From NCBI GenBank assembly GCA_029262515.1, contig JAJCZH010000008.1, forward strand, positions 62,001 through 126,000: DNA of 64,000 nucleotides. Reading direction: 5' to 3'. The DNA is from Deltaproteobacteria bacterium. GTDB lineage: Bacteria > Desulfobacterota > GWC2-55-46 > JADFVP01. Position numbers and translations under genes: made by a program. The stretch's first letter is position 1, and every line of letters begins with the position of its first letter. The notes below the pieces were generated by a model. That model did no database searches. It was not told where the DNA came from and worked only from the letters and a program-made list of their open reading frames with translations. Positions 37,690 through 63,706 of the stretch are shown piece by piece.

Positions 37690-38016
37690 CTACCTGGACT
37701 CGGAGTACGCCCTCATTGCGGCGCTACCTTTCTGGATACTGCTCACCTTCTGCTTGTGCTCCTCAATAGTGGTCTCGATATTGAGGTTAAGATCTTTGTT
37801 CTGCAAGAGAACCTTATCTACCAACTGTCTCACCATCGGCTCTTCTACATATTTGTCTAAAGATAACGCAGAGAGTTCGTTAAAGATAACAGCTCTGTCC
37901 TTCTGGCACTCCAGCATCTCTACCAGCCTGTTTTCTTCAAAGTACTTGAACTGTTTCTTTGATAATTCAAAGACCTCTGCTAAGAGCAACCTCACCTTCT
38001 CAAGGTCAGACACCAT
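37690..38016 (-). CDS. fliT: FliT-like flagellar protein (putative export chaperone)
   Basis: The 108 aa all-helical product contains EKVRLLLAEVFELSKKQFKYF, LVEMLECQKDRAVIF and LLQNKDLNLNIETTIEEHKQK, with coiled-coil character. It is called FliT from its place directly after fliS (11-base overlap) and fliD, and from size and helix content; the sequence itself is not diagnostic. FliT proteins escort the cap protein FliD to the export apparatus. Confidence 0.65.
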   Translation of the reverse strand: MVSDLEKVRLLLAEVFELSKKQFKYFEENRLVEMLECQKDRAVIFNELSALSLDKYVEEPMVRQLVDKVLLQNKDLNLNIETTIEEHKQKVSSIQKGSAAMRAYSESR

Positions 38017-38428
38017 AACTTATGCTCCGCCTCTGCTCCAGGACGTTTACTACAGGAGTTTCGACCTTGTTATCCGAGATCGCCTCCCAGCCCTGCTTCA
38101 GCTCACTAATAACCCTGCTGAATACGTCGATCGGTTTGCTGTCGTTATTCATATTTGCATTGTTGAGCTGCTCAATACCGTACTGGTACAGATGAAAAAG
38201 GTTGTCCGCAATCTCTCCGCCCCTCTCCATATCGAGGCAGCCGCACAACTCGGTCACAATAGCTAAAGACCTGTTTATGTTGTAATTTCTCGACTCCACA
38301 TTGCCTTCCTCAATCGCCTTCTGCGCAATCGTATTGAACTTAATGATACCGTCGTACAGCATTACAACCAGTCTAACTCTGTCGGCAGTCAACACCTGGA
38401 CATTCTGATATTTCTGCACGTTATTCAT
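38006..38428 (-). CDS. fliS: Flagellar export chaperone FliS
   Basis: The 140 aa product is a four-helix FliS. YQNVQVLTADRVRLVVMLYDGIIKF is the typical helix 1, with AIEEGNVESRNYNINRSLAIVTELCGCLDMERGG and LFHLYQYGIEQLNNANM later. It binds the C-terminus of flagellin and prevents its assembly in the cytoplasm; in several bacteria it competes in the FliW-CsrA switch. ATG 38428 has AGGGGG upstream. fliD ends 6 bases upstream. Confidence 0.94.
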   Translation of the reverse strand: MNNVQKYQNVQVLTADRVRLVVMLYDGIIKFNTIAQKAIEEGNVESRNYNINRSLAIVTELCGCLDMERGGEIADNLFHLYQYGIEQLNNANMNNDSKPIDVFSRVISELKQGWEAISDNKVETPVVNVLEQRRSISYGV

Positions 38429-40247: not shown

Positions 40248-40264
40248 AACCCCTCCTTAGGTGC

Positions 40265-40287
40265 GGCGGGGACCGTATGTCCCCGCC
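40265..40287 (-). terminator. Strong hairpin after the flagellin gene
   Basis: A perfect 9-bp stem (GGCGGGGAC/GTCCCCGCC) with a 5-base loop lies just after the flagellin stop. On the minus strand no T-run follows, so it may protect the abundant flagellin mRNA or partly terminate, not end the transcript outright. Confidence 0.5.
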
Positions 40288-40316
40288 ATAAAGCACCCTT
40301 GGAATACACGTACTTA

Positions 40317-41159
40317 CTACCTGAGCAACGTCAACGCATTGTTCGGCAGCGTATTAGCCTGGGCAAGTACCGAGGTACCGGCCTGAACCATTATCTGGTT
40401 TCTTGTATAGATAGCGGTCTCAAAAGCGAAGTCCGCGTCTCTGATACGAGATTCAGCAGCCTGGAAGTTAGTGAACGTAACCTGCAGGTTGGTAAGCGTT
40501 GTTGAGAGCCTACTGGAACTCGCACCGAAAACAGATCTTGCATCGTTGACGGTTTTAAGAGCGGAACTGATAGTATCGATCGCTCCGAGTGCTCCGGTTA
40601 CCGAAGAGAGAGCCCCTGCGGAGAGGCTGAGACCGATGGAGCCGGTCGCGCCTGCAGAGGTAAGCGCTATCATCGAAACAGACAACTGGTCATTTGAAGA
40701 GTTCTTAAACCCGATAAACATGGTAAGCGAACTTACGGAACCGTTCAGGAGCTTGTTTCCACCGAACTCAGTGGTCTGGGCAACCCTCTCGATCTCACTG
40801 ACGAGTTTGTCGTACTCATCTGAGTAGTAACTTCTTGTGTTGGAATCCAGAGTACCCTGTGCGGCGCTGGCGGCCAGTTCACCCATTCTTGTAAGAATCA
40901 TGGTGACCTGCTCGGCGGCCTTATCACTTATTTCAAGGGCGCTGATACCGTCATTTGCGTTACGCATGGATGCCTGGATCATTCTGGACTGGGATCTTAA
41001 CTGATCAGCTCTGGCCAGACCTGCTGCATCGTCAACGGCATTGTTGACTCTGAGGCCGGATGAAAGTCTCTGTACACTGACCTTCAACTGTGAGTTGGAT
41101 GTGGCGATGTTACGCTGAGCTACTAGAGATGCGATATTAGTGTTGATAACTAATGGCAT
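40317..41159 (-). CDS. fliC: Flagellin
   Basis: The 280 aa product is a minimal flagellin with only the D0/D1 core and a short central part. The N-terminal region is VINTNIASLVAQRNI, LSSGLRVNNAVDDAAGLA and IQASMRNANDGISALEISD. The C-terminal region is the typical RIRDADFAFETAIYTRN, ending MVQAGTSVLAQANTLPNNALTLLR. The middle (about 150-200) is Ser/Thr-rich, the place where flagellins are O-glycosylated. AAGGAGGG precedes ATG 41159. The 5' leader carries a predicted CsrA hairpin and a sigma-28-like promoter. The glycosylation genes lie just upstream. Confidence 0.97.
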   Translation of the reverse strand: MPLVINTNIASLVAQRNIATSNSQLKVSVQRLSSGLRVNNAVDDAAGLARADQLRSQSRMIQASMRNANDGISALEISDKAAEQVTMILTRMGELAASAAQGTLDSNTRSYYSDEYDKLVSEIERVAQTTEFGGNKLLNGSVSSLTMFIGFKNSSNDQLSVSMIALTSAGATGSIGLSLSAGALSSVTGALGAIDTISSALKTVNDARSVFGASSSRLSTTLTNLQVTFTNFQAAESRIRDADFAFETAIYTRNQIMVQAGTSVLAQANTLPNNALTLLR

Positions 41160-41186
41160 GTATATACCCTCCTTAGTCTGTTCTTT

Positions 41187-41200
41187 CGGCGTCCTTGCCG
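41187..41200 (-). promoter_or_regulatory. Candidate CsrA-binding hairpin in the flagellin leader
   Basis: On the mRNA, CGGC and GCCG pair around the hexaloop AAGGAC, so a GGA is exposed in a loop as CsrA prefers. A second GGA lies in the Shine-Dalgarno AAGGAGGG (41167-41174), 13 bases downstream. Paired sites with one on the ribosome site are the known layout for CsrA repression of flagellin in Bacillus. csrA and fliW are in this window. Confidence 0.5.
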
Positions 41201-41300
41201 GTTATTCAGTTTTACAAATCTACAACTTTGCCGGTTTCCTGTTCAGCCTAAATTAAAATTATCCTCCTTTCGGCCAGATTACAGTCCACCATTACTACTC

Positions 41301-41327
41301 TCTTCGGATAATTCTAGTATAACTTAA
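41301..41327 (-). promoter_or_regulatory. Candidate sigma-28 (FliA) promoter for flagellin
   Basis: On the minus strand TTAAGTTA (41320-41327), an 11-base spacer and TCCGAAGA (41301-41308) match TAAAGTTT-N11-GCCGATAA at 6 of 8 and 5 of 8 positions with exact spacing, about 140 bases upstream of the flagellin ATG. This would leave a long leader for CsrA control. Confidence 0.4.
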
Positions 41328-41334
41328 GAAAAAA

Positions 41335-41937
41335 TCAAGAACTTTTATCAAAAAATAAACTTTTTAATATTTCCTCAACTAATGGCTTCAACTCATATTC
41401 GAGCACATCGGCTAAAAGCACGTTATCTGTTGAGTCCCTGGCCTCCTTTACAGTCTCAAGGCAGTCGAGGATAGACTTGTAGTAAGCTGAAGGATCTTGC
41501 CGGAAGATCGAGATATCAAACTTCTTTCCCCCGCTGAAGAGTTCGTGCATAGTCTTTACGATCTCGGTCATACCGTCAACTATAACAACCACGGAGACAT
41601 CAACGGAAGCGCCGCCGAGCCTGACACCGTCTACGCATTTATCTATATTTTCGAGTACCACCCTTAGATAGTTCTCTAAAACATCGACACCCTCAAGGAC
41701 AATTCTCTCAACAGTCGCAGAGGTCAGCTTAAGTTCGTTAAACTCTAAAATAAGCCTCTTAGAGACAGGATCGTCCCGCCAGGAGTCAAACTCATCTCCA
41801 TCTAGGCTCAATGCGCATATAAAACGCCTGTGCTCCCTAAGCTGCTCTTCGAGTACAAAGACGAGCTTTTCTACCGTCGTATCATGTTCCGTATCCTCAA
41901 ACTCTACTTTCGAGTCATCGAGATAGATATCGGTCAT
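41335..41937 (-). CDS. Acidic protein of unknown function in the flagellar cluster
   Basis: The 200 aa, strongly acidic, mostly helical product has no signal peptide or membrane segment. Segments include VEKLVFVLEEQLREHRRF, VERIVLEGVDVLENYLRVVLENI and DVLEYELKPLVEEILKSLFF. I do not recognise the family. It sits between the Maf-type transferase and flagellin, 47 bases after the former and on the same strand. This position suggests a cytoplasmic role in flagellin handling or glycosylation. Confidence 0.75.
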   Translation of the reverse strand: MTDIYLDDSKVEFEDTEHDTTVEKLVFVLEEQLREHRRFICALSLDGDEFDSWRDDPVSKRLILEFNELKLTSATVERIVLEGVDVLENYLRVVLENIDKCVDGVRLGGASVDVSVVVIVDGMTEIVKTMHELFSGGKKFDISIFRQDPSAYYKSILDCLETVKEARDSTDNVLLADVLEYELKPLVEEILKSLFFDKSS

Positions 41938-41984: not shown

Positions 41985-43937
41985 TTACCGCACCGGTTCG
42001 CTCTGTTGCAAAGACTTAGGCTCCACCACCCTCGACTCCACCATATTTATCGCAGAGTCGAAGAGAGGCAACAGCTTTTTCGTCATCTCCCCAACCTCTG
42101 TATAGGTCTTTTCTATAGTCTCTACGTCAACCTTGAATTGCTCTTCCTGGCTCTCCGACACCTCTTCACGGAGCTGCTCTTTCAACTGATGCGTATAGGC
42201 CGTTAGCGCCTCCCATAGAAAGGGCGTCTTGCGGGTCATGTCAAAGAGGCTCTTTTCCAGCGCCTCTATCTTCTTTACGTTTTTGACAAGCTCCGGCGTA
42301 AGCCCCAGAAGCTTAAACGAAGCGCGTATTTTCTCAACCTCTTTAAATATCTTTACAGCCTGTTTCCTAATATATACCAAACCATCGCGCATCTGTACAA
42401 GAGATTTCCCAAGAGCCTTGAAATCGACCGGTATCCTGGCACTTACAGCAGACTCTATAACCGTGTCGATATATATATCTTCATGAACATGCCTCTTGAT
42501 CGCCTCTTCAAGGCTTATATGCTCCATACCGTCGATATAAGCCCCCCCCTCTGTGGCATTTATCACCTTCTGCGACATATCTTCTTTTTTCATGTAATGC
42601 ATATAGGTCTCGAACCACTGGTGAAATGTTACCCAGTCGAACTTGCTGGCCACCGGTGAGCCGTTCAAACCCTTTAGCCAGAGAATGGTATAATCCACTC
42701 TACCGGTACGTCCGTCGGCATAATCCCAGTCGATCCGGCCCGTCCCGTTTTTACTATCTATGGTAAGTTGCTGCCCCTCGTAAACGCCTCCCGATACATG
42801 CGTCTCCCCGTCTCCGAAGGCGAGGTCCTGACCCACAAAGATAACCGGATCACAACCGAACATAATACCCATATCGAGGGCGGATGTCGTAACCGAGCCG
42901 CCTATAGAGGCGAAGTAGCGGCAGCCCCACATCTGGGCCTGCTCAGTACTAAGGTTACTGAACGCATTGAAGAAAGTGAACTTGCTCTTCATCTTCCTTT
43001 CAAAGAGCTTGGGGCTCGCCACCTCGGCCAAGATAAGATGTACTTCTTTATCGGTGTCGGAATTTGTAAAGTACTCCGGCATATCTATTCTCTCGCCGCC
43101 TATGACGAAGTCCGGCACAACACCGAGGCGGAGAAGTGGTTTATACGCGGTAATAGCCGCAATTATTACGGCCTTTCCCTTGATCTCTTTTAACAGGTGT
43201 CCATTTTTATTTAGCGACGGGCCGGCTCCGACTACAACCATCGGTTTGCCTTTAAACCTTCCCCTCAGCACGTCTATAGAAGGAGTCTCGGGAAAATAGT
43301 TGAAGTTTTCGAGATAATTCTCTATCCACGGGAGCCTCGAGTCAATATTAGTCTTTATCGCCACCTGTGTAGTGGTATAGGCGTTCTGCACCTTGTTGGT
43401 GAAATCTGAAAACTCTTTCTGAAAAGTCGTCCTGTAAGGGCCCGGCTGATAACTCAACAGGCTGTCCATACCGTCCACATAGTCGCGTATGCAGTGCGTT
43501 GCGCTTAGGGTATCGTTAAAGAGGAAGACCGAGCCGCCGGACAACTCTTCACTTAGATCCACGGCGCTGAGCACCGAGTGGAGTATATCCATCTTAGGCT
43601 CGAAGACGATCAGTTTTTCGTGCCCCTTCTCAATAAAAAGCTTTATATGATAACCGCATCCGAGGCCGAAAAGAACAACCCAGTCCGGCTTTTTCACCAG
43701 AATATCATCCACCTGTCCGGTAGCTTCCTTGAGCGGGTCGTAACTGCTATGAAAGAACCGGCCGTCGTACTTGAAGGTATACAGCCCGTTTCGGGCACGC
43801 AGAAGCTCTACGTCCGCACCTTCGTACTCCCTCAGGTCACCGGCTAACTCGGCACTCTTCTTCTCTAAAGCTGAGATGTTCCTTTCCAGGATTCCTGAAG
43901 CGCATCCGGCCTGGCCCATATTCTCACTGTCACTCAT
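41985..43937 (-). CDS. Motility-associated factor (Maf/DUF115) glycosyltransferase-like protein
   Basis: From ATG 43937 (GTG 43943 is possible) the product is 650 aa. It has the DUF115 / 6-hydroxymethylpterin-pyrophosphokinase-MptE-like core: KGKPMVVVGAGPSLNKNGHLL, VIIAAITAYKPLLRLGVVPDFVIGGER and GSVTTSALDMGIMFGCDPVIFVGQDLAFGDGETH. Maf proteins attach nonulosonic acids to flagellin Ser/Thr residues in Campylobacter, Aeromonas and relatives. The pse-type genes upstream and flagellin downstream support that role here. It is presumably cytoplasmic. Confidence 0.9.
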   Translation of the reverse strand: MSDSENMGQAGCASGILERNISALEKKSAELAGDLREYEGADVELLRARNGLYTFKYDGRFFHSSYDPLKEATGQVDDILVKKPDWVVLFGLGCGYHIKLFIEKGHEKLIVFEPKMDILHSVLSAVDLSEELSGGSVFLFNDTLSATHCIRDYVDGMDSLLSYQPGPYRTTFQKEFSDFTNKVQNAYTTTQVAIKTNIDSRLPWIENYLENFNYFPETPSIDVLRGRFKGKPMVVVGAGPSLNKNGHLLKEIKGKAVIIAAITAYKPLLRLGVVPDFVIGGERIDMPEYFTNSDTDKEVHLILAEVASPKLFERKMKSKFTFFNAFSNLSTEQAQMWGCRYFASIGGSVTTSALDMGIMFGCDPVIFVGQDLAFGDGETHVSGGVYEGQQLTIDSKNGTGRIDWDYADGRTGRVDYTILWLKGLNGSPVASKFDWVTFHQWFETYMHYMKKEDMSQKVINATEGGAYIDGMEHISLEEAIKRHVHEDIYIDTVIESAVSARIPVDFKALGKSLVQMRDGLVYIRKQAVKIFKEVEKIRASFKLLGLTPELVKNVKKIEALEKSLFDMTRKTPFLWEALTAYTHQLKEQLREEVSESQEEQFKVDVETIEKTYTEVGEMTKKLLPLFDSAINMVESRVVEPKSLQQSEPVR

Positions 43938-43960
43938 AAACACTTAACCTTATTGATTTT

Positions 43961-54045: not shown

Positions 54046-54951
54046 TCAGGTAGCCTTCCTGCCATAAATAATCATCTCTCTGCCTATGCCATGCGCAGCC
54101 ATCAGACCGCACAACTCCTGTTTAAAGCTCTTTAACTCCGGCGCTTCAAGCATGATCTCTAGCTGCTTTCTTTTGGTATGGCAGTCCCGTCCGAGCTTGT
54201 CGTTGCCGACGTAGTTTTCTCCCATAAGCAGAAAGAAATCAATCGGGAACATAGCGCTCTGCTCTACAACCTCGAAACCGGCCTTTCGCATCAAAGCGGC
54301 AAGAGACCCGAAAGAGAAGTAATTGATATGGTGCGGCGGGGCGAGCCAGTATGCAGAGTAGCCGAGCTTTTCAACCAGCACCTTCTGCACTGGGCTGTAG
54401 TCGTTCGGAACAACGCAACAGATGATGCCGCCGTCATTCAAAAGAGAGTACGCCTGAGAAAGTACACTGAGAGGGTCGCGAGTATGTTCAAGAACTTCGG
54501 AGAGGTGAACCGCGTCGAAGCTCCTATCCTCTTTAGTAAAAGAAGCCCGGAGTGAGGAATCGAGAAATGCGTTAATAACCTCTATGCCAAGCTTTTCGGC
54601 ATGGTCGGCCGCCTGCACGGAAGGCTCTATACCTGTAACCTGCCACCCCCTGTCGACACCCCGTTTCAGGAAATAACCGGGTCCGCAACCAACGTCGAGC
54701 AGACTCCGGCTCAGTGCCGGCAACCGGGACTCGAAGTAATCGTACCTGGAGTCGAAAACAGTAGTCCACCACTCGATATCTTTTATAACGTTATCGATAA
54801 ACTCCGGTTTCTCTTCGCTGTAGTACTCACCCGAGTAGATCTCGTCGAGCTGCTCTGGCGTCGGTAACGGATCTATATGAACAAAACCGCACTCGTCACA
54901 ATCGATTATTGAATACTGCCCGGCTCTATCTAAAACAGACCCTCTATGCAT
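54046..54951 (-). CDS. Class I SAM methyltransferase
   Basis: From ATG 54951 (GGAG 6 bases upstream, overlapping the PseG-like stop by 8 bases) the product is 301 aa. Only the second knuckle of the usual zinc ribbon is present (CDECGFVHIDPLP), then the fold: LLDVGCGPGYFLKRGVDRGWQVTGIEPS, FDAVHLSEVLEHTRDPLSVLSQ, GGIICCVVPNDYSPVQ and PPHHINYFSFGSL. Substrate unknown. The shortened ribbon may no longer bind zinc. Confidence 0.87.
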   Translation of the reverse strand: MHRGSVLDRAGQYSIIDCDECGFVHIDPLPTPEQLDEIYSGEYYSEEKPEFIDNVIKDIEWWTTVFDSRYDYFESRLPALSRSLLDVGCGPGYFLKRGVDRGWQVTGIEPSVQAADHAEKLGIEVINAFLDSSLRASFTKEDRSFDAVHLSEVLEHTRDPLSVLSQAYSLLNDGGIICCVVPNDYSPVQKVLVEKLGYSAYWLAPPHHINYFSFGSLAALMRKAGFEVVEQSAMFPIDFFLLMGENYVGNDKLGRDCHTKRKQLEIMLEAPELKSFKQELCGLMAAHGIGREMIIYGRKAT

Positions 54952-56053
54952 GGCCAACTCCGTTATCAGATCCACGTGTCCCGTTCAACATAACCGGAGC
55001 GTTTAGGCTATAAAAAAGCTCACAGAGTATTCCGGCCACCCTGTGCGCTCCATCACCGTCTATAAGAACCTTCGCCCTGTCGCCCATCCGGGCCAACTCA
55101 TCTCTCTCTTGCGCAAAGTATTCTACAATCGACTGAACCGCCTCAATACTGAGCTCTTCAAAAAAACCGAGACTCCGGCAGATGCCGGTTGATTCAAGCA
55201 CTGCCATCTCTTTCACATCTTTCAAGTAGTTGCCGACAAGTATCGACGGAACACCTATAGAGGCCAGTTCGTAAACGGTTATGCCGAGTGCCGTAAAGGC
55301 GATATCAGCGCCGGCGGCTAACGGCGCAAGATTGTCTATACCGGAATGAAAGGTAAAATACGGAGGCGGGGCTGAAATAATCTTGCGCATACTCTCGGAC
55401 GGTTTTGCGGCAGGCCCGATTACAACATCGACCTCTATACCATATAGACCGGCAAGCGCCTCTGTCAGCAACTCGCTCAGCCCGTTAGGATCAGCCCCGC
55501 CCATTGTAACAAGGACCTTCAGTGGCCCATCTTTTTGCTCCCTCTTTTTCCTGCTTTGAGTACGCCTGAGCTCTACAAAGTTCTCACCCACTATTACGTA
55601 ATCGCTTCCCCCGTAAACCTTATCAGCGCCACCTGCCGGAAACTCGCCGCCCGACTCTTTCAAATCGGAACCCATGAAAATGGCGGACGGAATAATCACG
55701 GAGTCGGAGAACCTGTTTGCGCTACTGTTATCCAAAACCACAACTCTCTTTCCCGAAGCCTGCATTTTACCAACAGTGCCGGCCAGATCCCTCTTAGTAT
55801 CTATAACGATTACCGTACCCAGTTCTTTAGCTGAACAGTTACTATCAAAATCTCCCGTAACATAAGGCAGCCCTGCCCTCTCCAAGAGAGCCTTGACGGA
55901 ACTGTCGTTATTGACCCTGAACTCAACCGGAACCCCTGACTTCAGTAAAGCGCGCGCAACTGTTATTGAGCGTGATATGTGCCCCATACCTACTTTACAA
56001 CCGCCTTCGGTTATAAAAGACACGCCGTTAAAAGGAGTCTCTGATCTATTCAC
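54944..56053 (-). CDS. pseG: PseG-like UDP-sugar hydrolase / GT-B protein
   Basis: The 369 aa product has the PseG signature FITEGGCKVGMGHISRSITVARALL at the N-terminus, where the GH motif contributes to catalysis, a GT-B fold with VLVTMGGADPNGLSELLTEAL, YFTFHSGIDNLAPLAAGADIAFTALGITVYELASIGVPSILVGN. PseG removes UDP from the trideoxy-altrose intermediate of pseudaminic acid. At 369 aa it is longer than Campylobacter PseG (about 275). It overlaps the Gfo/Idh gene by 4 bases. Confidence 0.8.
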   Translation of the reverse strand: MNRSETPFNGVSFITEGGCKVGMGHISRSITVARALLKSGVPVEFRVNNDSSVKALLERAGLPYVTGDFDSNCSAKELGTVIVIDTKRDLAGTVGKMQASGKRVVVLDNSSANRFSDSVIIPSAIFMGSDLKESGGEFPAGGADKVYGGSDYVIVGENFVELRRTQSRKKREQKDGPLKVLVTMGGADPNGLSELLTEALAGLYGIEVDVVIGPAAKPSESMRKIISAPPPYFTFHSGIDNLAPLAAGADIAFTALGITVYELASIGVPSILVGNYLKDVKEMAVLESTGICRSLGFFEELSIEAVQSIVEYFAQERDELARMGDRAKVLIDGDGAHRVAGILCELFYSLNAPVMLNGTRGSDNGVGHA

Positions 56054-57069
56054 AGCAGGCTGCCGTCCCGTTTAATATTTAATGCCAGCTCAAGTGTTTT
56101 AATCGCGTCCGCAATGCCTGTATTCGGTAACGCCCCGCTCTCGATACAGCTAAGGAAGTGTCGCATCTCGGACACGTACATACTGTTAATTTCAAAATCT
56201 ATCTCTTCGTTTTTCCACTTCGATTCCGTTGCGAGATATATCTCTATAAGACCTTCAATAAAATCGCACCGTACGGTACTCGTTTCACCGACTACAACCA
56301 TACGGTGCTGAGAGGCGCGCTGCAGAAAGTCGGTCTGCCATGTAACGTATTGTCCGTTTTCGAGCTGCATAATGGCAGAGGCCATGTCCTCGACATCGAG
56401 GTCGAGCGAACCTATTCTGTCCACATAAGAGCGGAACTTCTTAACATCTCCGAAGAGCCACCTGACGTTATCGAGTCCGTGGATGCTCGTAAGTATAACC
56501 CCGCCGCCAAGCTCGCTTCTTGCCGCATACTCTTTTCTATAATCGGCTCTGGGGTGCCAGTCCGGCAGGTAATGACCGCCGTAGTAATTCGTGTGTAAGA
56601 GCCTGCCTAAACTGCCGGAATCGAGCAGGCTTTTAAGACGCAGAAAAACCGGGTGAAAGCGGTAACACATACCGACCATTGCGACGATACCCTTGTCTGT
56701 CACAAGCTCTAAGAGTTCTTTGGTGCCGGCAATCGTATTGGAGAGCGGTTTTTCTATAAAGAGATGCACGCCTTTGTCCGCAAGGCGCCTGCTCATCTCA
56801 AGATGCAGACTCGACGGCGTGGCTATTATCGCCGCACCGGCTCCGGCTTCAACGGCCTCATCGAAATCAAGAAAAAGCTCCGGCTTCTCAAGCCTCGCAC
56901 CTTCAAGATCACCGGCCGCACTATCAAGAGCAACTATATCAAGGTCACAAAAGATAAAGTGACGTACTCCGATCCCGGCCAGGTTCTTTATATGTCTTCT
57001 TCCGATAGAACCGCAACCGACAACGAGCACTTTTGTACCAAGTACATTTCTTCCAAGTGGCTTTTCCAA
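56050..57069 (-). CDS. Gfo/Idh/MocA family oxidoreductase
   Basis: The 339 aa product has an N-terminal NAD(P)-binding fold (KVLVVGCGSIGRRHIKNLAGIGVRHFIFCD), the family EKPLS motif in LFIEKPLSNTIAG and a C-terminal dimerisation domain (LGGGVILTSIHGLDNVRWLFGDV). Such enzymes oxidise or reduce sugar positions. It starts 3 bases before the end of the aminotransferase-like upstream spacing (57073) and overlaps PseG by 4 bases. The substrate is likely an intermediate of the cluster glycan. Confidence 0.9.
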   Translation of the reverse strand: MEKPLGRNVLGTKVLVVGCGSIGRRHIKNLAGIGVRHFIFCDLDIVALDSAAGDLEGARLEKPELFLDFDEAVEAGAGAAIIATPSSLHLEMSRRLADKGVHLFIEKPLSNTIAGTKELLELVTDKGIVAMVGMCYRFHPVFLRLKSLLDSGSLGRLLHTNYYGGHYLPDWHPRADYRKEYAARSELGGGVILTSIHGLDNVRWLFGDVKKFRSYVDRIGSLDLDVEDMASAIMQLENGQYVTWQTDFLQRASQHRMVVVGETSTVRCDFIEGLIEIYLATESKWKNEEIDFEINSMYVSEMRHFLSCIESGALPNTGIADAIKTLELALNIKRDGSLL

Positions 57070-57072
57070 TAC

Positions 57073-58374
57073 TCAATCCCTCTTTCTAAAGACCACGCCG
57101 ACGGGCTCGCCTTCGAGAAAGCTCTTTGGCTCGCCGCTTCTTATCGCCTGGGCAAGAACCCCTATAGCCTCCCCGGAGACCTCTATAGTCCTATCGATAT
57201 CGGATTCCGTATGTGAATAAGAGATAAAGACCGGGCCGCCGAAGAGCACGCCCCGCTTTACGGTCTCGGCCATGAAGATCGACTTTAAAAGCAGGTCTTC
57301 GGCTCCGTTCTCGTTAAGTACGGCTATTCCTGCGCGAGGCCCGTTGCCGGATATCCTTAAGTCAACGCACGCTGCCTCTGCCGCCTTCCTGATACCGGCA
57401 TGCAACCTTTCACCGGTCTTCCAGAGATACTCAACTACGGGCCTTTCGATCAACTCGGTTAATGTCGCCTTTGTAGCGGCGAGACCGAGAGTATCACCGG
57501 AAAAGGTCATGGAGAAGAAGACCTCGTTCAATTCGCCCATAACCTCTTTTGATCCCGCAAGTGCCGAGATTGGAAAACCGTTGCCCATGCCCTTGCCGAG
57601 GCACGTAAGGTCAGGGGTGACATCGAAGAGTTTCTGCGCTCCGCCGATAGAGTACCTGAAGCCGGTGACGATTTCATCGAGTATAAAGATTGCGCCGTTC
57701 GCATGAGCTACGTCACACACCTCCTGAAGAAAGTTCTTTCCCGTTTTCGGATTTAGAACAGGATCGACTCCGGGCACCTCCATTATGACCGCACCGATCT
57801 TTCCCTGCTGCTCGGCAAAAATAGCCTCAAGGCTCTCTATATTATTGTATTCAAACGGATGCATAAAAGAGGCGAAGAGTTTGGGGATACCCTTGTTGCG
57901 CGGGGTCGTCACGGCGTACCAGTCTTGAGAGCCGTGATAACCGCAGTATGCGATAGAGTCCCTGCCCGTGTACGCTCTTGCAACCTTGATAGCCGCGCTC
58001 GTAACGTCCGCGCCGTTCTTTCCGTAACGGACCATCTCGGCAGACGGCACAAGCTCCGTTATCAGCTCGGCCACCTCGACCTCAAGCGGGTGCATGAGCG
58101 TAAAGGTAGTACCCGTGCGAACCTGCTCTATAACCGCTTCCGAGACCGAAGGATAGTCGTACCCGAGCAGGATAGGTCCGAGAGCCATCGGGTAGTCTAT
58201 GTACTCGTTACCGTCTACGTCCCAGACATGCGAGCCCTTGCCGCGCAAGAGGAACTTCGGAGTCACGCCCTGAACAAACTGATCGGGGCCCTTGCTCAGG
58301 GTCTGGGTACCGGCAGGAATAAGCTCTTTAGCCCTTGCCCATAACTGCTCGGATACAGGAAATTTTTTATTCAT
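57073..58374 (-). CDS. Class III PLP aminotransferase, glutamate-1-semialdehyde-aminomutase-like
   Basis: The 433 aa product has the fold-type I class III pattern: ELIPAGTQTLSKGPDQF, VRYGKNGADVTSAAIKVARAYTGRD, FILDEIVTGFRYS and the PLP lysine in LTCLGKGMGNGFPISAL. It looks like GSA aminomutase but sits in a sugar cluster beside SpsF- and NeuB-like genes, a known companion arrangement, so a sugar or semialdehyde amine transfer is more likely than tetrapyrrole synthesis. 4 bases separate it from the Gfo/Idh gene. Confidence 0.9.
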   Translation of the reverse strand: MNKKFPVSEQLWARAKELIPAGTQTLSKGPDQFVQGVTPKFLLRGKGSHVWDVDGNEYIDYPMALGPILLGYDYPSVSEAVIEQVRTGTTFTLMHPLEVEVAELITELVPSAEMVRYGKNGADVTSAAIKVARAYTGRDSIAYCGYHGSQDWYAVTTPRNKGIPKLFASFMHPFEYNNIESLEAIFAEQQGKIGAVIMEVPGVDPVLNPKTGKNFLQEVCDVAHANGAIFILDEIVTGFRYSIGGAQKLFDVTPDLTCLGKGMGNGFPISALAGSKEVMGELNEVFFSMTFSGDTLGLAATKATLTELIERPVVEYLWKTGERLHAGIRKAAEAACVDLRISGNGPRAGIAVLNENGAEDLLLKSIFMAETVKRGVLFGGPVFISYSHTESDIDRTIEVSGEAIGVLAQAIRSGEPKSFLEGEPVGVVFRKRD

Positions 58375-58413
58375 GGATCTCTCTCTGATTTTGGCTATTT
58401 TTAATAATATTGG

Positions 58414-59223
58414 CTATTTCTCGGGCTCATTCTCTATATTATAATCTTCACTCAAAGACTTGGCATAACCCTCATTTCTAACCGTGCCGGAATTGATAGA
58501 CTCAAGCTCGGGCTTATCCGCCAGAAAAGCAATAATGTCGTCCATATAAAAAAGCTCGTTCTTATCTGAAAAAGCGACAAAAGCCTCAAAAACTTTCGTT
58601 ACAAAGAGAAAATCCCTCTCGTCATCGACAGTCCAGCGCATCTGCGCGCTTGCCCCCTCAACCGTTACGGTAGAGAGGTCGAACCTGTCGGGATGCTTCC
58701 ATATATACGGCGTTACGTGTTCATGCTCCGAAGCCAATTTAGCCTCTTTGTGAGCCTTCTTTAGCGCACTGATCGTGAATGCCTCGCAATCGAGCCCGTC
58801 GGGGAATTCACCTCCGAGGCTCGCATACTCGTGCGCCCCGGTTTCCAGCCGCTCTATCACGCTATCTACTATTCTCGGGTCTATCAACGGACAGTCCGCC
58901 GTAATGCGAACAACCGTTTTGGCGCCAGCCTCAACTGCCGCATTGTAGTACCTGTCCAGCACGTCTTCTAAGCTGCCCCTATAGACTCCCACACCATTGG
59001 TGTTTGCCCACTGCTCTATTATATCGTCACTTGGATCTGTGCTGGTTGCTATCACTATTCGGTCGATCCTGTCCGCACCTCCGAGCCGCTCGACCACATG
59101 GGCCAGAACCGGTCTGCCGTTGATCTCCATCATAACCTTGCCCGGCAGGCGAGTCGAACTCATCCGGGCCTGCACAATAGCAACTACCGGGTGCCACTCA
59201 GCAGCAGGTTCCGGCCCGCTCAT
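58414..59223 (-). CDS. SpsF-like cytidylyltransferase
   Basis: The 269 aa product is a nucleotidyltransferase of the CMP-NeuAc synthetase superfamily, SpsF type: VVAIVQARMSSTRLPGKVM, DRIVIATSTDPSDDIIEQW, VRITADCPLIDPRIVDSVI and GLDCEAFTISALKKA. It should activate the nonulosonic acid with CMP (the PseF step). It overlaps the NeuB-like gene by 4 bases, so synthase and activating enzyme are translationally coupled. Confidence 0.9.
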   Translation of the reverse strand: MSGPEPAAEWHPVVAIVQARMSSTRLPGKVMMEINGRPVLAHVVERLGGADRIDRIVIATSTDPSDDIIEQWANTNGVGVYRGSLEDVLDRYYNAAVEAGAKTVVRITADCPLIDPRIVDSVIERLETGAHEYASLGGEFPDGLDCEAFTISALKKAHKEAKLASEHEHVTPYIWKHPDRFDLSTVTVEGASAQMRWTVDDERDFLFVTKVFEAFVAFSDKNELFYMDDIIAFLADKPELESINSGTVRNEGYAKSLSEDYNIENEPEK

Positions 59224-60260
59224 ACGGACTCCGAGGTTACTGGCCTGTCCTTTAAAATATCGACCTTCGCGACACGGCCTGTTACGTTATCCAGCTCCTT
59301 CGGTTCGAGACCGTAACAGTGACGAACTACCTTCAACATCCCTGCGGTTAAGACCGTGCCTTTCTTAATATCGGTAACGGCGTAGATTGCGCGGCGCGCG
59401 CCGACCCTCTCGGGGATTTCGCCCTTTGACGGTTCTTTCACTCCGCTGCCTAACGCAACCCCAAGGTTCCTGATGTCGGAAACCATTGAAGCGAACTCAA
59501 CTACCTCCATGGCATACGGATGATCCGGCCCCTCGGAACTTTTATCTATCGTTATATGCTTTTCTATTATCGTTGCACCGAGAGTTACGGAGGCGATTGG
59601 CAGCATGGAGCCTGGAGTATGGTCTGAGAGTCCTACGGGGCAGGAGAACTTGTCGCGCAGAGCCGTTATCGAACGGATATTGCACTCGTCGTACTCAGGC
59701 GGGTAGAGAACAACGCAGTGCAGAAGCCCGACCGTGTCATTACCCTCGGCAGAGATGATCTCGACTGCGCGCTCAACCTCGCTCATATACGACGCCCCTG
59801 TCGAAAGGATTACCGGTTTTCCGAAAGCCGCTATCCGGCGCAAAAGCGGCTCATTGGTTATCTCACCCGAAGCTATCTTGAAGGCGCCTATGCCTATCTC
59901 GTTCAACAGGTCCGCCCTGCCGGAATCGAACGGGGCCGAAAGAAAGTCTATACCTTCCTTCTCGGCAAACTCTTTAAGCTCAATATGCCACTCAACAGGC
60001 ACTGTTAACCGTTCTACTACCGGGTACGCCGGGTGCGGCACCCAGTCCTGGGCATTCTCCATTGGTCTGAGCGGATTCAACAGCCCCTCTGCGGTAAAGG
60101 ACTGGAACTTAACGGCGTCCGCGCCGGTGCTGCGCGCTGCGCTTATAAGCTCTTTAGCCTTATCAAGGCTTCCGTCGTGGTTTGAACCGGCCTCGGCAAT
60201 CACATATACGGGCTGCCCGGCGCCTATACTCCGCCCGTTTATCTCAAACTTCTCTTTCAT
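59220..60260 (-). CDS. NeuB/PseI family nonulosonic acid synthase
   Basis: The 346 aa product is a sialic-acid-synthase family TIM barrel: VYVIAEAGSNHDGSLDKAKELISAA, ADAVKFQSFTAEGL, VGLSDHTPGSMLPIASVTLGATIIEKHITID, plus a C-terminal SAF antifreeze-like domain (from about 285, ARRAIYAVTDIKKGTVLT). It condenses a 6-carbon sugar with phosphoenolpyruvate. With PseB/C/G in the window, pseudaminic- or legionaminic-type acid is more likely than Neu5Ac. It ends in ATGA overlap with the SpsF-like gene. Confidence 0.93.
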   Translation of the reverse strand: MKEKFEINGRSIGAGQPVYVIAEAGSNHDGSLDKAKELISAARSTGADAVKFQSFTAEGLLNPLRPMENAQDWVPHPAYPVVERLTVPVEWHIELKEFAEKEGIDFLSAPFDSGRADLLNEIGIGAFKIASGEITNEPLLRRIAAFGKPVILSTGASYMSEVERAVEIISAEGNDTVGLLHCVVLYPPEYDECNIRSITALRDKFSCPVGLSDHTPGSMLPIASVTLGATIIEKHITIDKSSEGPDHPYAMEVVEFASMVSDIRNLGVALGSGVKEPSKGEIPERVGARRAIYAVTDIKKGTVLTAGMLKVVRHCYGLEPKELDNVTGRVAKVDILKDRPVTSESV

Positions 60261-60506
60261 TCACTCTTTCCCGTTTCTATCGGTCCGGGTCACGGCCGAT
60301 TCCGTTTCAGAAACACCGCTATCCGATGCCGATCCCTGTTCGCTTATTATATCTATAATCTGCTTTGCCGCCTTTGTATCACTCAACAACTCCAGCTCTC
60401 CATTGCACTCCGGACACTGAAGCAGTTCGCAGTTCTTGTAGCGGTGGTACATAGCCCACCCCCTGAACTGCTTTGAACACCCTTTACAGACCCAGCGTGG
60501 CATCAT
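60261..60506 (-). CDS. Small zinc-ribbon protein
   Basis: The 81 aa product has two CxxC knuckles (CKGCSKQF at about residue 8 and CPECNGEL at about 32), which could bind one zinc, followed by a Ser/Glu-rich tail. The fold resembles zinc ribbons that head methyltransferases in this cluster, but here it stands alone. It ends one base before the NeuB-like gene, so it is co-translated with it. Function unknown. Confidence 0.7.
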   Translation of the reverse strand: MMPRWVCKGCSKQFRGWAMYHRYKNCELLQCPECNGELELLSDTKAAKQIIDIISEQGSASDSGVSETESAVTRTDRNGKE

Positions 60507-60564
60507 AACGGCCTCCTGATTATATTAAGCTCAAAAACTTGAATCCGCATGATACTCCCGCATG

Positions 60565-61716
60565 TTACAAAAGAGAAGACAGAACCGCCTCCACAACTCC
60601 GTCAACCTCCGCGTCCGTAAGCGTAGGATAGATCGGCAGGCTGACCTCGCGAGAGTAAAAGGCCTCTGCGTTTGGAAAGTCGCCAACAGAGTAACCGAAC
60701 TTTTCGCGATAAAACTTGTGCAGATGTACGGGTATGTAATGAACCTGCGGCAAAATAGAGCGCGCCTCCATGCGTCCAAACCACTCAGTCCTTGAGATAC
60801 CTAAGGCCTCGAAATCGATCTCAAGCGGGTAGAGGTGGTACGCGCTCTTATACCCGTCTACCGTTGGAGGAATCTTCAGGAGCGGATTGGCGCTAAAAGC
60901 ACGGTCGTAAACGGATGCGATCTCGAGACGCCGTATTATGAACGATTCCAATCTCTTTAGCTGGCTGACTCCGAGTGCGCTCTGCAAGTCGGTGAGCCTG
61001 TAGTTGTAACCGAGTAACTCGACCTCGTAAAACCACCGGCGCTCTTCTCCTGCAGCCTTTGACATGCCGTGGTTTCTAAAACTCTTGAGCCTTTTGTAAA
61101 GTTCGGGGTCGTTCGTGGTCACGGCGCCGCCCTCGCCGGTCGTAATAGACTTAACCGGATGGAAGCTGAAGACCGCCATGTCGGAGAACTCGCATGCTCC
61201 GACCTTAACACCCTTACCGTCCATGCCGTTCAGCTCGGCTCCAAGCGCATGGCAGGCATCCTCAATAACTCTCAGGCCGCGACTCTTCGCAATTGACCGT
61301 ATGGCGCGCATGTCAGCCGGAAGCCCGGCAAAATGGACCGGCAGAACAGCCTTGATCTCAGGTCTTTCGTCGAGCGCCTTCTCTAAAGCAACAGGGTCGA
61401 TATTATGCGTTACGGGGTCTATATCGGCAAAATAAGGGGTCGCACCGACGAAGAGGGCGCAATTAGCGGTGGCTACGAAGGTCATCGGAGAGGTCAATAC
61501 GGCATCAGAAGGGCCGAGCCCGGCGGCAAGAACAGCAAGGTGTAACGCTGCCGTTCCGGTGGAACAACAGACTGCGAACTCGGCTCCGGTATAGTCGCAA
61601 AGGGCCTCTTCAAACCGCTCGACCACCGGACCCTGCGTAATCATAGATGAGCGCAGAACAGAAAGAACCGCCTCTATGTCATACTCATCAACTGTTTGCC
61701 GGCCGTATGATATCAC
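60565..61716 (-). CDS. pseC: UDP-4-amino-4,6-dideoxy-N-acetyl-altrosamine transaminase, PseC-like
   Basis: The 383 aa product is a DegT/DnrJ/EryC1-family PLP aminotransferase: ISYGRQTVDEYDIEAVLSVLRSSMITQGP, CCSTGTAALHLAVLAAGL, IEDACHALGAELNG and the PLP lysine Lys189 in FSFHPVKSITTGEGG. It adds an amino group to the PseB product. The GTG start at 61716 overlaps pseB by 29 bases. The tight pairing with PseB supports the specific assignment over a generic sugar aminotransferase. Confidence 0.92.
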   Translation of the reverse strand: MISYGRQTVDEYDIEAVLSVLRSSMITQGPVVERFEEALCDYTGAEFAVCCSTGTAALHLAVLAAGLGPSDAVLTSPMTFVATANCALFVGATPYFADIDPVTHNIDPVALEKALDERPEIKAVLPVHFAGLPADMRAIRSIAKSRGLRVIEDACHALGAELNGMDGKGVKVGACEFSDMAVFSFHPVKSITTGEGGAVTTNDPELYKRLKSFRNHGMSKAAGEERRWFYEVELLGYNYRLTDLQSALGVSQLKRLESFIIRRLEIASVYDRAFSANPLLKIPPTVDGYKSAYHLYPLEIDFEALGISRTEWFGRMEARSILPQVHYIPVHLHKFYREKFGYSVGDFPNAEAFYSREVSLPIYPTLTDAEVDGVVEAVLSSLL

Positions 61717-62701
61717 TCTTTTCTTCCTCCAGGAACTCGTCTATCATAACCCTTATCTCATCTATACCGAGCACGTCTGGATTGGTATTACTGGCATAAG
61801 AGAAGTGGTCGGCAACAGGTACCCCGCCGGCCTTTCTCTCATCGTCCCACCACCTGAACATAGGCTGAATGACGAAGTAGTCGTCAAACTCTAGAGTCTC
61901 CCTGCCGTTCTCTTTCGAGATAAGTATCTCGTGCAGCTTTTCGCCCGGTCTTATTCCGACCACGTCGATTCTAGCCTCAGGCGCTATGGCCTTGGCAACA
62001 TCGAGTATGCTAGCGCTCGGGATCTTAGGCACGAATATCTCGCCCCCCTTCATGCACTTGAGGCTTCTGAGCACGAAGTCTGCGCCCTTGTCTATAGTTA
62101 TCCAGAACCTGGTCATATCCGTGTCGGTTATCGGCAGGACACCCGTGACTCGAAGCTTATTGAAGAGTGGAATAACAGAACCACGGCTGCCGACCACATT
62201 TCCGTAACGAACTACCGAGAAACGCGTAGGCTGACTACCTGCATAAGAGTTACCGGCTATGAAAAGCTTATCTGAACAGAGCTTGGTCGCGCCGTAGAGG
62301 TTTATCGGGTTTGCGGCCTTGTCGGTAGACAGAGCAATCACCTTCTCTACGCCGCAATCGACCGCCACATCGACCACATTCTGCGCGCCGAGCACATTGG
62401 TCTTGATAAATTCGTAAGGGTTGTACTCTGCCGCAGGCACCTGCTTAAGGGCTGCCGCGTGAATAACGTAATCTACTCCGTTAAACGCCCTGTAAAGCCT
62501 TTCTTTATCCCTGACGTTACCGATAAAGAAACGAAGAGAGTCATCCTTGAACTTAACAGCCATCTCATGCTGCTTAAGTTCATCCCTGCTCAATATGATT
62601 ATCTTTTTAGGAGAGTGCTCCGCAAGCAACTTTTTTACCAGCTTATTGCCGAGCGAGCCTGTCCCGCCGGTGATAAGTATACTCTTTCCTGTAAAGTCCA
62701 T
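61688..62701 (-). CDS. pseB: UDP-N-acetylglucosamine 4,6-dehydratase (inverting), PseB-like
   Basis: From ATG 62701 (GGAG 6 bases upstream) the product is 337 aa; an ORF extending to 62836 has no ribosome site. SDR fold: SILITGGTGSLGNKLVKKLL, then IIILSRDELKQHEM, DYVIHAAALKQVPAAEYNPYEF and the YGATK catalytic pair. It takes UDP-GlcNAc to the 4-keto-6-deoxy sugar, first step to pseudaminic acid. It is the first gene after a sigma-54-like promoter. Confidence 0.93.
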   Translation of the reverse strand: MDFTGKSILITGGTGSLGNKLVKKLLAEHSPKKIIILSRDELKQHEMAVKFKDDSLRFFIGNVRDKERLYRAFNGVDYVIHAAALKQVPAAEYNPYEFIKTNVLGAQNVVDVAVDCGVEKVIALSTDKAANPINLYGATKLCSDKLFIAGNSYAGSQPTRFSVVRYGNVVGSRGSVIPLFNKLRVTGVLPITDTDMTRFWITIDKGADFVLRSLKCMKGGEIFVPKIPSASILDVAKAIAPEARIDVVGIRPGEKLHEILISKENGRETLEFDDYFVIQPMFRWWDDERKAGGVPVADHFSYASNTNPDVLGIDEIRVMIDEFLEEEKSDIIRPANS

Positions 62702-62841
62702 AAGAGACTCCTGCATACAGTCGAAAACAGCTATACACTTCGCCTTAATCTTCTGTCCCGATCCATTCGATACCACAGTGAACCGGCATGAGATACATAT
62801 TGATAGCGTATCATATATAGGGACAGATACTGACATATTAT

Positions 62842-62991: not shown

Positions 62992-63456
62992 CTACTTTGC
63001 TGAAATGACGTGATTTACCCTGTACTCTTCATTATCGATAATAGACTGCATGGCATTCATGCTCTCGCTGTTAAAGAGTATCGGGCCCTTCAGGTTGAGA
63101 CTCACCTGCTGCTTACCGTCAGGGCCGACAGAGACGCAGACCATGACCAGGACAACGAGGTTAGCCCGGTTTTCGATATCGAGAACCTTCAGGTCCGACT
63201 TTCTGAAGTTTACGTCATACTGTTTAAGGTACTGCGTGGGGTCTGTAAGCAAGAAGGCGGTATCGGGGTTCTCTACCGACTGAAGCCACTTGAAGACCCC
63301 CTCTTCGTCATGGTTAATCAGAATAAACCTCTTTAAACCCTCGAAACCGGGTATAGAGTGAACAAAGCATATTACCCTGTCCTGCGTTACGGTTACCGGA
63401 CCGAAACGGGATGTTTCAATCGTCAAATCTGTAGGTGCCTGCTGAGTTGAGTTCAT
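62992..63456 (-). CDS. fliW: Flagellar assembly factor FliW
   Basis: The 154 aa product is a FliW beta-barrel: [61 protein letters not shown] and the typical end. FliW binds CsrA and flagellin in turn, so released CsrA represses flagellin mRNA when flagellin accumulates. It overlaps the csrA stop by 4 bases, giving flgL-csrA-fliW order. Confidence 0.95.
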
Positions 63457-63689
63457 TTACTCTTCTTTATTAGGTCGCCGAGCGTGGCTGTTATATCGGC
63501 CTGCGAGACTCCGGCCGCCTTGATATTCTCTTCCTGTATCTTCAGGTATATCTCTTCTCTATGAACGGAGAGGCTCTGGGGGGCCTCTATACCGAGCTTG
63601 ATCTGGTTCTCCCTGACATCTATGATGACGATCTTGATATCGTCGCCGATTCTGATCGCTTCACCGGACTTCCGTGTCAAAACTAACAT
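63453..63689 (-). CDS. csrA: Carbon storage regulator CsrA
   Basis: The 78 aa product is Csr[21 protein letters not shown], the key RNA-contact Arg44 in [11 protein letters not shown], and a C-terminal tail longer than the E. coli protein (61 aa), as is usual outside Gammaproteobacteria. CsrA binds GGA in RNA hairpins and usually blocks translation. Its own Shine-Dalgarno is the loop of a hairpin, see 63691-63706. Confidence 0.97.
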
Positions 63690-63690
63690 A

Positions 63691-63706
63691 TTGCCCTCCT
63701 TGGCAA
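63691..63706 (-). promoter_or_regulatory. Candidate CsrA autoregulatory hairpin over the csrA ribosome site
   Basis: On the mRNA TTGCC and GGCAA pair in a perfect 5-bp stem around the hexaloop AAGGAG, which is both the Shine-Dalgarno and an exposed GGA. The structure ends two bases before the csrA ATG. Confidence 0.6.

Follow-up and report, generated by a model that had tools for sequence, protein, structure and literature searches.

A putative two-site CsrA-binding element in the flagellin leader of an uncultured deltaproteobacterial lineage

The ribosome site of the flagellin gene in the window (the whole 64,000-nucleotide stretch of DNA analyzed here) is preceded by a hairpin with an AAGGAC loop, raising the question of whether the flagellin message is controlled by CsrA, whose gene lies in the same window. 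An earlier note had placed an AAGGA hexaloop hairpin and a ribosome-site GGA in this leader, and both sequence and coordinates are right. The note described the hairpin as the second of its kind, and the other one is TTGCC-AAGGAG-GGCAA (63706-63691), over the csrA ribosome site. Pfam matches confirm that flagellin, FliS, FliW and CsrA are all encoded in the window.

Anatomy of the flagellin leader

The leader and its gene comprise the following features:

41301..41326, minus strand: predicted sigma-28-like promoter, TAAG-N15-CCGAAGA, read from the sequence
about 41293-41297, minus strand: predicted transcription start, placed from the sigma-28-like promoter
41245..41275, minus strand: element I, GGCC-GAAAGGAGG...-GGCU, an untranslated Shine-Dalgarno-like box near the leader 5' end, possibly a weak hairpin (box counts, enclosing stem)
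41187..41200, minus strand: SL1, hexaloop hairpin, predicted high-affinity CsrA site (fold, covariation, match to the covariance model R1)
41166..41177, minus strand: SL2, ACU-AAGGAG-GGU, the Shine-Dalgarno as a predicted second hexaloop-type CsrA site (hardly varies in the order; stem covaries across the wider phylum)
40317..41159, minus strand: flagellin gene (Pfam Flagellin_N and Flagellin_C)

On the minus strand, the leader reads 5'-TAAG-N15-CCGAAGA ... GGCCGAAAGGAGGATAATTTTAATTTAGGCT ... CGGCAAGGACGCCG-AAAGAACAGACT-AAGGAGGG-TATATAC-ATG and is about 135 nt long. SL1 (CGGC-AAGGAC-GCCG, 41200-41187) stands upstream of the flagellin ATG (41159) and is joined by the 12-nt linker AAAGAACAGACT to AAGGAGGG at 41174-41167. 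The earlier note had allowed that the leader might not be transcribed, but a predicted sigma-28-type promoter lies upstream of all of it and is kept in relatives, so transcription is very probable.

Folded alone, SL1 has an energy of -6.7 kcal/mol and an ensemble frequency of 0.98, and its C-AAGGAC-G places a CANGGANG hexaloop on a paired stem, as expected of a high-affinity site. CANGGANG is the consensus quoted for high-affinity CsrA/RsmE sites (PMC4894983). The loops of both SL1 and SL2 match it, as does the phylum consensus, with the U-G closure of SL2 in the host's order being an exception. SL2 in the window is energetically marginal (ACU-AAGGAG-GGU, -0.1 kcal/mol), and the ribosome-site GGA is weakly structured. 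The two GGA motifs are 22 nt apart in the window, 19-24 nt in the order and mostly 20-26 nt in the phylum. For sites bridged by a CsrA dimer, the workable distance is 10-63 nt and the best is above 18 nt (PMC7652899), so the spacing in the window suits a bridging dimer.

The window has four ANGGAN hexaloops (stem of at least 4 pairs, 2 G-C) on its coding strand and two on the other; flagellin, csrA and flaG are each immediately preceded by one of the four. Bulk properties of the leader are ordinary: its GGA count (6 in 144 nt) is reached by 34% of shuffles and the full leader is no more stable than shuffles (z -0.43), and both GGA density and global fold stability were dropped as evidence. No Rfam 15 family reached its gathering score in the window, and none matched the leader even with E allowed up to 5.

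Conservation and covariation of the two hairpins

A flagellin search matched in 35 of 48 genomes of the host's order, and 33 of these 35 leaders carry an ANGGAN hexaloop on a stem of at least 4 bp, as compared to 0.29 expected from shuffles. They share GGC-ANGGAN-GCC, followed 8-14 nt later by CTA(A/C)GGAGGGT, with a TAAAGTT...CCGATAA promoter upstream at the same position as the predicted promoter in the window; tandem flagellin copies without their own promoter (L033, L027) still have both sites. A strict DNA pattern matched 10 of 395 phylum genomes, all from the host's order, and found 36 stretches among 84,980 species genomes, mostly in Deltaproteobacteria MAGs. Seven non-deltaproteobacterial loci matching the pattern have no flagellin, look like chance, and were discarded. 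Separately, a Halothermothrix MAG (Firmicutes by name; L064, 6720-6770, minus strand) has SL1 plus the AAGGAGGG layout (GGCAAGGAUGCC...CUAAGGAGGG) before flagellin, which suggests great age or convergence.

Conservation of this kind could also be found in a functionless hairpin, as a product of the shared ancestry of flagellin upstream regions and a constrained Shine-Dalgarno. Within the order the leaders are close relatives, and SL2 varies too little there to show covariation; RNAalifold on the aligned order leaders recovered only SL1. This account is contradicted by covariation in a phylum sample from beyond the order (79 genomes, 86 flagellin leaders), in which most leaders have the two-part layout with different letters. 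SL1 stems around ANGGAN include GGGC/GCCC, GGTC/GACC, GGCT/AGCC and GGAAC/GTTCC, among others, and variants at the Shine-Dalgarno loop include AATC-AAGGAG-GATT, TTTC-AAGGAG-GAAA and TTAC-AAGGAG-GTAA, among others. When SL1 was picked by position alone, with no pairing criterion, pairs 1-5 were Watson-Crick far above shuffles. For SL1, there were 62 double-change cells versus 20.7 in shuffles, with a covariation score of 0.60 versus 0.15 (A1); for SL2, the corresponding values were 57 versus 24.3 and 0.54 versus 0.17 (A2). In neither case did any of 500 shuffles reach the observed values, and sliding the partner by one column collapsed the signal for both hairpins. The shuffles leave relatedness in, the slid control retains it, and more than 30 families were sampled. 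A1 was derived from 55 candidates by removing three larger-loop leaders (GCGCC...GGCGC type) and two near-duplicates and adding the window SL1, and unfiltered statistics on the 55 candidates agree with its result. Leaders in A3 were selected for SL1 pairing; this biases its SL1 counts, which were not used alone as covariation evidence. Across leaders, linkers and flanks diverge, whereas stem letters change jointly on both sides. Comparative folding of relatives' leaders, which the earlier note had proposed as a check, thus found the hairpin kept with compensatory changes, and the possibility of non-conservation falls away. A functionless hairpin is extremely improbable, and these comparisons are evidence of selection on the two-hexaloop leader.

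The host genome is 2.5 Mb in size, 98% complete, and has one csrA; searched in full with a covariance model of the full module (R1), it gave a single strong match, the flagellin leader at 42.5 bits. The two matches ranking next fall within or next to unrelated coding sequence, the better one (21 bits) in an mreC-like coding region; these were rejected, and the others are unremarkable. Among flagellate genomes, SL1 was found in 49 of 66 with CsrA versus 1 of 13 without it (Fisher p 1e-5, not corrected for relatedness), the latter being a small sample from 9 families in which some genomes may miss CsrA only through incomplete assembly. At least one genome in 31 of 35 CsrA-positive families has SL1, and about a quarter of CsrA-positive phylum genomes have no SL1 recognizable by the rule used. 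Of 47 order genomes, 31 have both CsrA and FliW, and neither was found in the others; the phylum sample has CsrA in 98 genomes, FliW in 97 and both in 95. Three genomes (G102, G126 and G257) have CsrA with FliW not detected, and CsrA control may differ there.

These distributions bear on the possibility that CsrA binds the leader chiefly so that an abundant flagellin mRNA can titrate CsrA, as opposed to serving flagellin homeostasis. Up to three GGA elements in a single abundant leader would suit such a role, and the C. jejuni flaA leader does titrate CsrA (PMC4894983). However, the single strong module in the host genome and the near-constant pairing of CsrA with FliW argue for a dedicated flagellin loop, making titration unlikely as the main purpose, although the two readings are mutually compatible. 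The same two observations support a view of flagellin control as the core job of CsrA outside Gammaproteobacteria.

The csrA-fliW locus and the proposed homeostatic loop

Three features make up the regulatory locus:

63453..63689, minus strand: csrA, 78 aa with a C-terminal extension and L4, R44, I51 and N55 (Pfam CsrA; matches PDB 5dmb chain D)
62992..63456, minus strand: fliW, with a 4-nt overlap with csrA (ATGA) (Pfam FliW; matches FliW of PDB 5dmb)
63691..63706, minus strand: csrA ribosome-site hexaloop TTGCC-AAGGAG-GGCAA, predicted autorepression site (-6.0 kcal/mol; order conservation)

Every one of the 30 order csrA leaders has a GCC-ANGGAG-GGC-type hairpin adjoining the ATG, with the ribosome site as its loop; of 37 csrA leaders from the wider phylum, about 11 have such a hexaloop. 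The ATGA overlap of csrA and fliW is present in 25 of 30 order loci, and L4, R44, I51 and N55 are kept in 30 of 30 order CsrA proteins, whose lengths are mostly 75-78 aa. FliW binding depends on N55 in C. jejuni, B. subtilis and Geobacter (PMC7829508, PMC13407953). Positions 51 and 55 of C. jejuni CsrA contribute to FliW binding, and position 51 may be V or I (PMC7829508). The genome has a second Flagellin_N match, immediately upstream of csrA and beyond the window (302 codons, 65 bits), which is taken as FlgL.

The csrA ribosome site also helps in weighing whether SL1 and SL2 serve the translation or stability of a strongly expressed mRNA, for instance as a standby site or 5' stabilizer, with CsrA uninvolved. 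Such elements would be at home on the abundant flagellin mRNA, where element I already resembles an untranslated Shine-Dalgarno or stabilizer box, and the leader module precedes only one gene in the host genome. Yet the loop is the CsrA consensus on stems whose sequences vary freely, SL1 tracks CsrA and FliW and is missing in CsrA-less flagellates with one exception in 13, and the csrA ribosome site bears the same loop. We therefore regard this explanation as very unlikely.

The flagellin leader is instead very probably a two-site CsrA-binding repressor element within CsrA-FliW-flagellin homeostasis, as judged from sequence, and from the known systems we infer the following course of events. 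One pocket of a CsrA dimer would bind SL1 (CANGGANG) and the other the Shine-Dalgarno GGA in SL2, 22 nt downstream, which would block ribosome binding. FliW, probably translationally coupled to CsrA through the overlap of their genes, would bind the C-terminal region of CsrA and release the mRNA. Unexported flagellin would in turn bind FliW and free CsrA, such that flagellin would be translated mainly during export. Through the hexaloop over its own ribosome site, CsrA may also curb its own synthesis and that of the coupled FliW. Given the csrA-fliW overlap, autorepression would also set the FliW dose, in keeping with the near 1:1 stoichiometry measured in Bacillus (PMC6529632).

In proposed function and in layout, this system corresponds to those at B. 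subtilis hag and C. jejuni flaA. In B. subtilis, CsrA blocks the flagellin Shine-Dalgarno, FliW antagonizes CsrA, and flagellin antagonizes FliW (PMC6529632), and the N55 that its CsrA needs for FliW is also kept here; this is a different phylum, and the likeness is one of function and layout as opposed to direct comparison of leader sequences. The C. jejuni flaA leader (PMC4894983) is likewise Gram-negative, has two ANGGA hexaloops about 21 nt apart with the second over the ribosome site, has pairing backed by compensatory changes, and is transcribed by sigma-28, which is predicted here. FliW antagonizes CsrA in C. jejuni, and would do so here. The C. jejuni leader is 45 nt long, whereas the one described here is about 135 nt and has the extra 5' GAAAGGAGG element; here also, csrA and fliW overlap, the csrA ribosome site is itself a hexaloop, and the CsrA sites are predicted. 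In Geobacter sulfurreducens, a former deltaproteobacterium, a CsrA with a C-terminal extension and N55 binds FliW, according to passages of a study concerning biofilm that do not describe the flagellin leader (PMC13407953). The earlier note had proposed that the full homeostatic loop operates in a Gram-negative-like genome. The CsrA residues and the FliW overlap support the loop, but C. jejuni is an existing Gram-negative example (PMC4894983), and that part is not new. A limited literature search found no description of such a flagellin leader in deltaproteobacteria. Added here are a wider taxonomic reach, support from covariation, element I, and a csrA ribosome-site hexaloop that is invariant in the order and accompanied by the csrA-fliW overlap. 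The proposed CsrA-FliW-flagellin checkpoint would thus be extended beyond a few model species to include an uncultured lineage of deltaproteobacteria and the phylum to which it belongs, and a covariance model of the leader could become an RNA family, there being none in Rfam.

Element I and neighboring sites

Element I is the least explained part of the leader. A box of the GAAAGGAGG(T/G) type follows the -10 element at a distance of about 40 nt, and the GAAAGGAGG box is found in 21 of 35 order leaders and in 33 of 73 CsrA-positive phylum leaders, as compared to about 2 expected. An enclosing stem is present in 16 of 21 versus 8.3 in the control, an enrichment of only twofold. In the order, the box is often enclosed by GGCC/GGCC, which is swapped for GGTC/GACC in L041 and for GCCC/GGGC in L035. 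No start codon is enriched behind the box at translation spacing, and a leader-peptide ORF was rejected on this ground. Element I may serve as a third site for CsrA, dock a ribosome, or stabilize the 5' end in the manner of the STAB-SD of cry3A mRNA, which is likewise a Shine-Dalgarno-like 5' box that starts no ORF (PMC4113751); STAB-SD is known in Gram-positives. More tentatively, and with less than even likelihood, the flagellin leader of the phylum could be a three-part device in which the two-hexaloop CsrA switch is joined by a conserved, untranslated, anti-Shine-Dalgarno-matching GAAAGGAGG box; by holding either a ribosomal subunit or a further dimer of CsrA, this box would stabilize or pre-load the message, with CsrA in this lineage being a dedicated flagellin regulator, not a global one, that is lost along with flagella.

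Flagellin is followed by flaG, fliD and fliS, in that order, and two features were recorded among them:

40249..40262, minus strand: flaG ribosome site ACCU-AAGGAG-GGGU, possible further CsrA-type hexaloop (R1 14.1 bits; similar within the genus only)
38006..38428, minus strand: fliS, flagellin chaperone (Pfam FliS)

CsrA sites at fliD and fliS were rejected, as comparison of relatives by eye revealed no conserved ribosome-site hexaloop. A GC-rich terminator-like hairpin (GCGGGGAC...GUCCCCGC; 40265-40292, minus strand) lies between flagellin and flaG, and most order relatives have an analogous hairpin there. Flagellin is adjoined by a Maf/MptE-like gene (41985-43943); between the two is a 200-aa ORF (41335-41937, minus strand) whose sole Pfam match is marginal, to a short HSP70 stretch. 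Farther along, sugar dehydratase, aminotransferase, cytidylyltransferase, synthase and related ORFs occur in a run (54046-62836, minus strand) that resembles a pathway of the pseudaminic-acid type, which would glycosylate flagellin.
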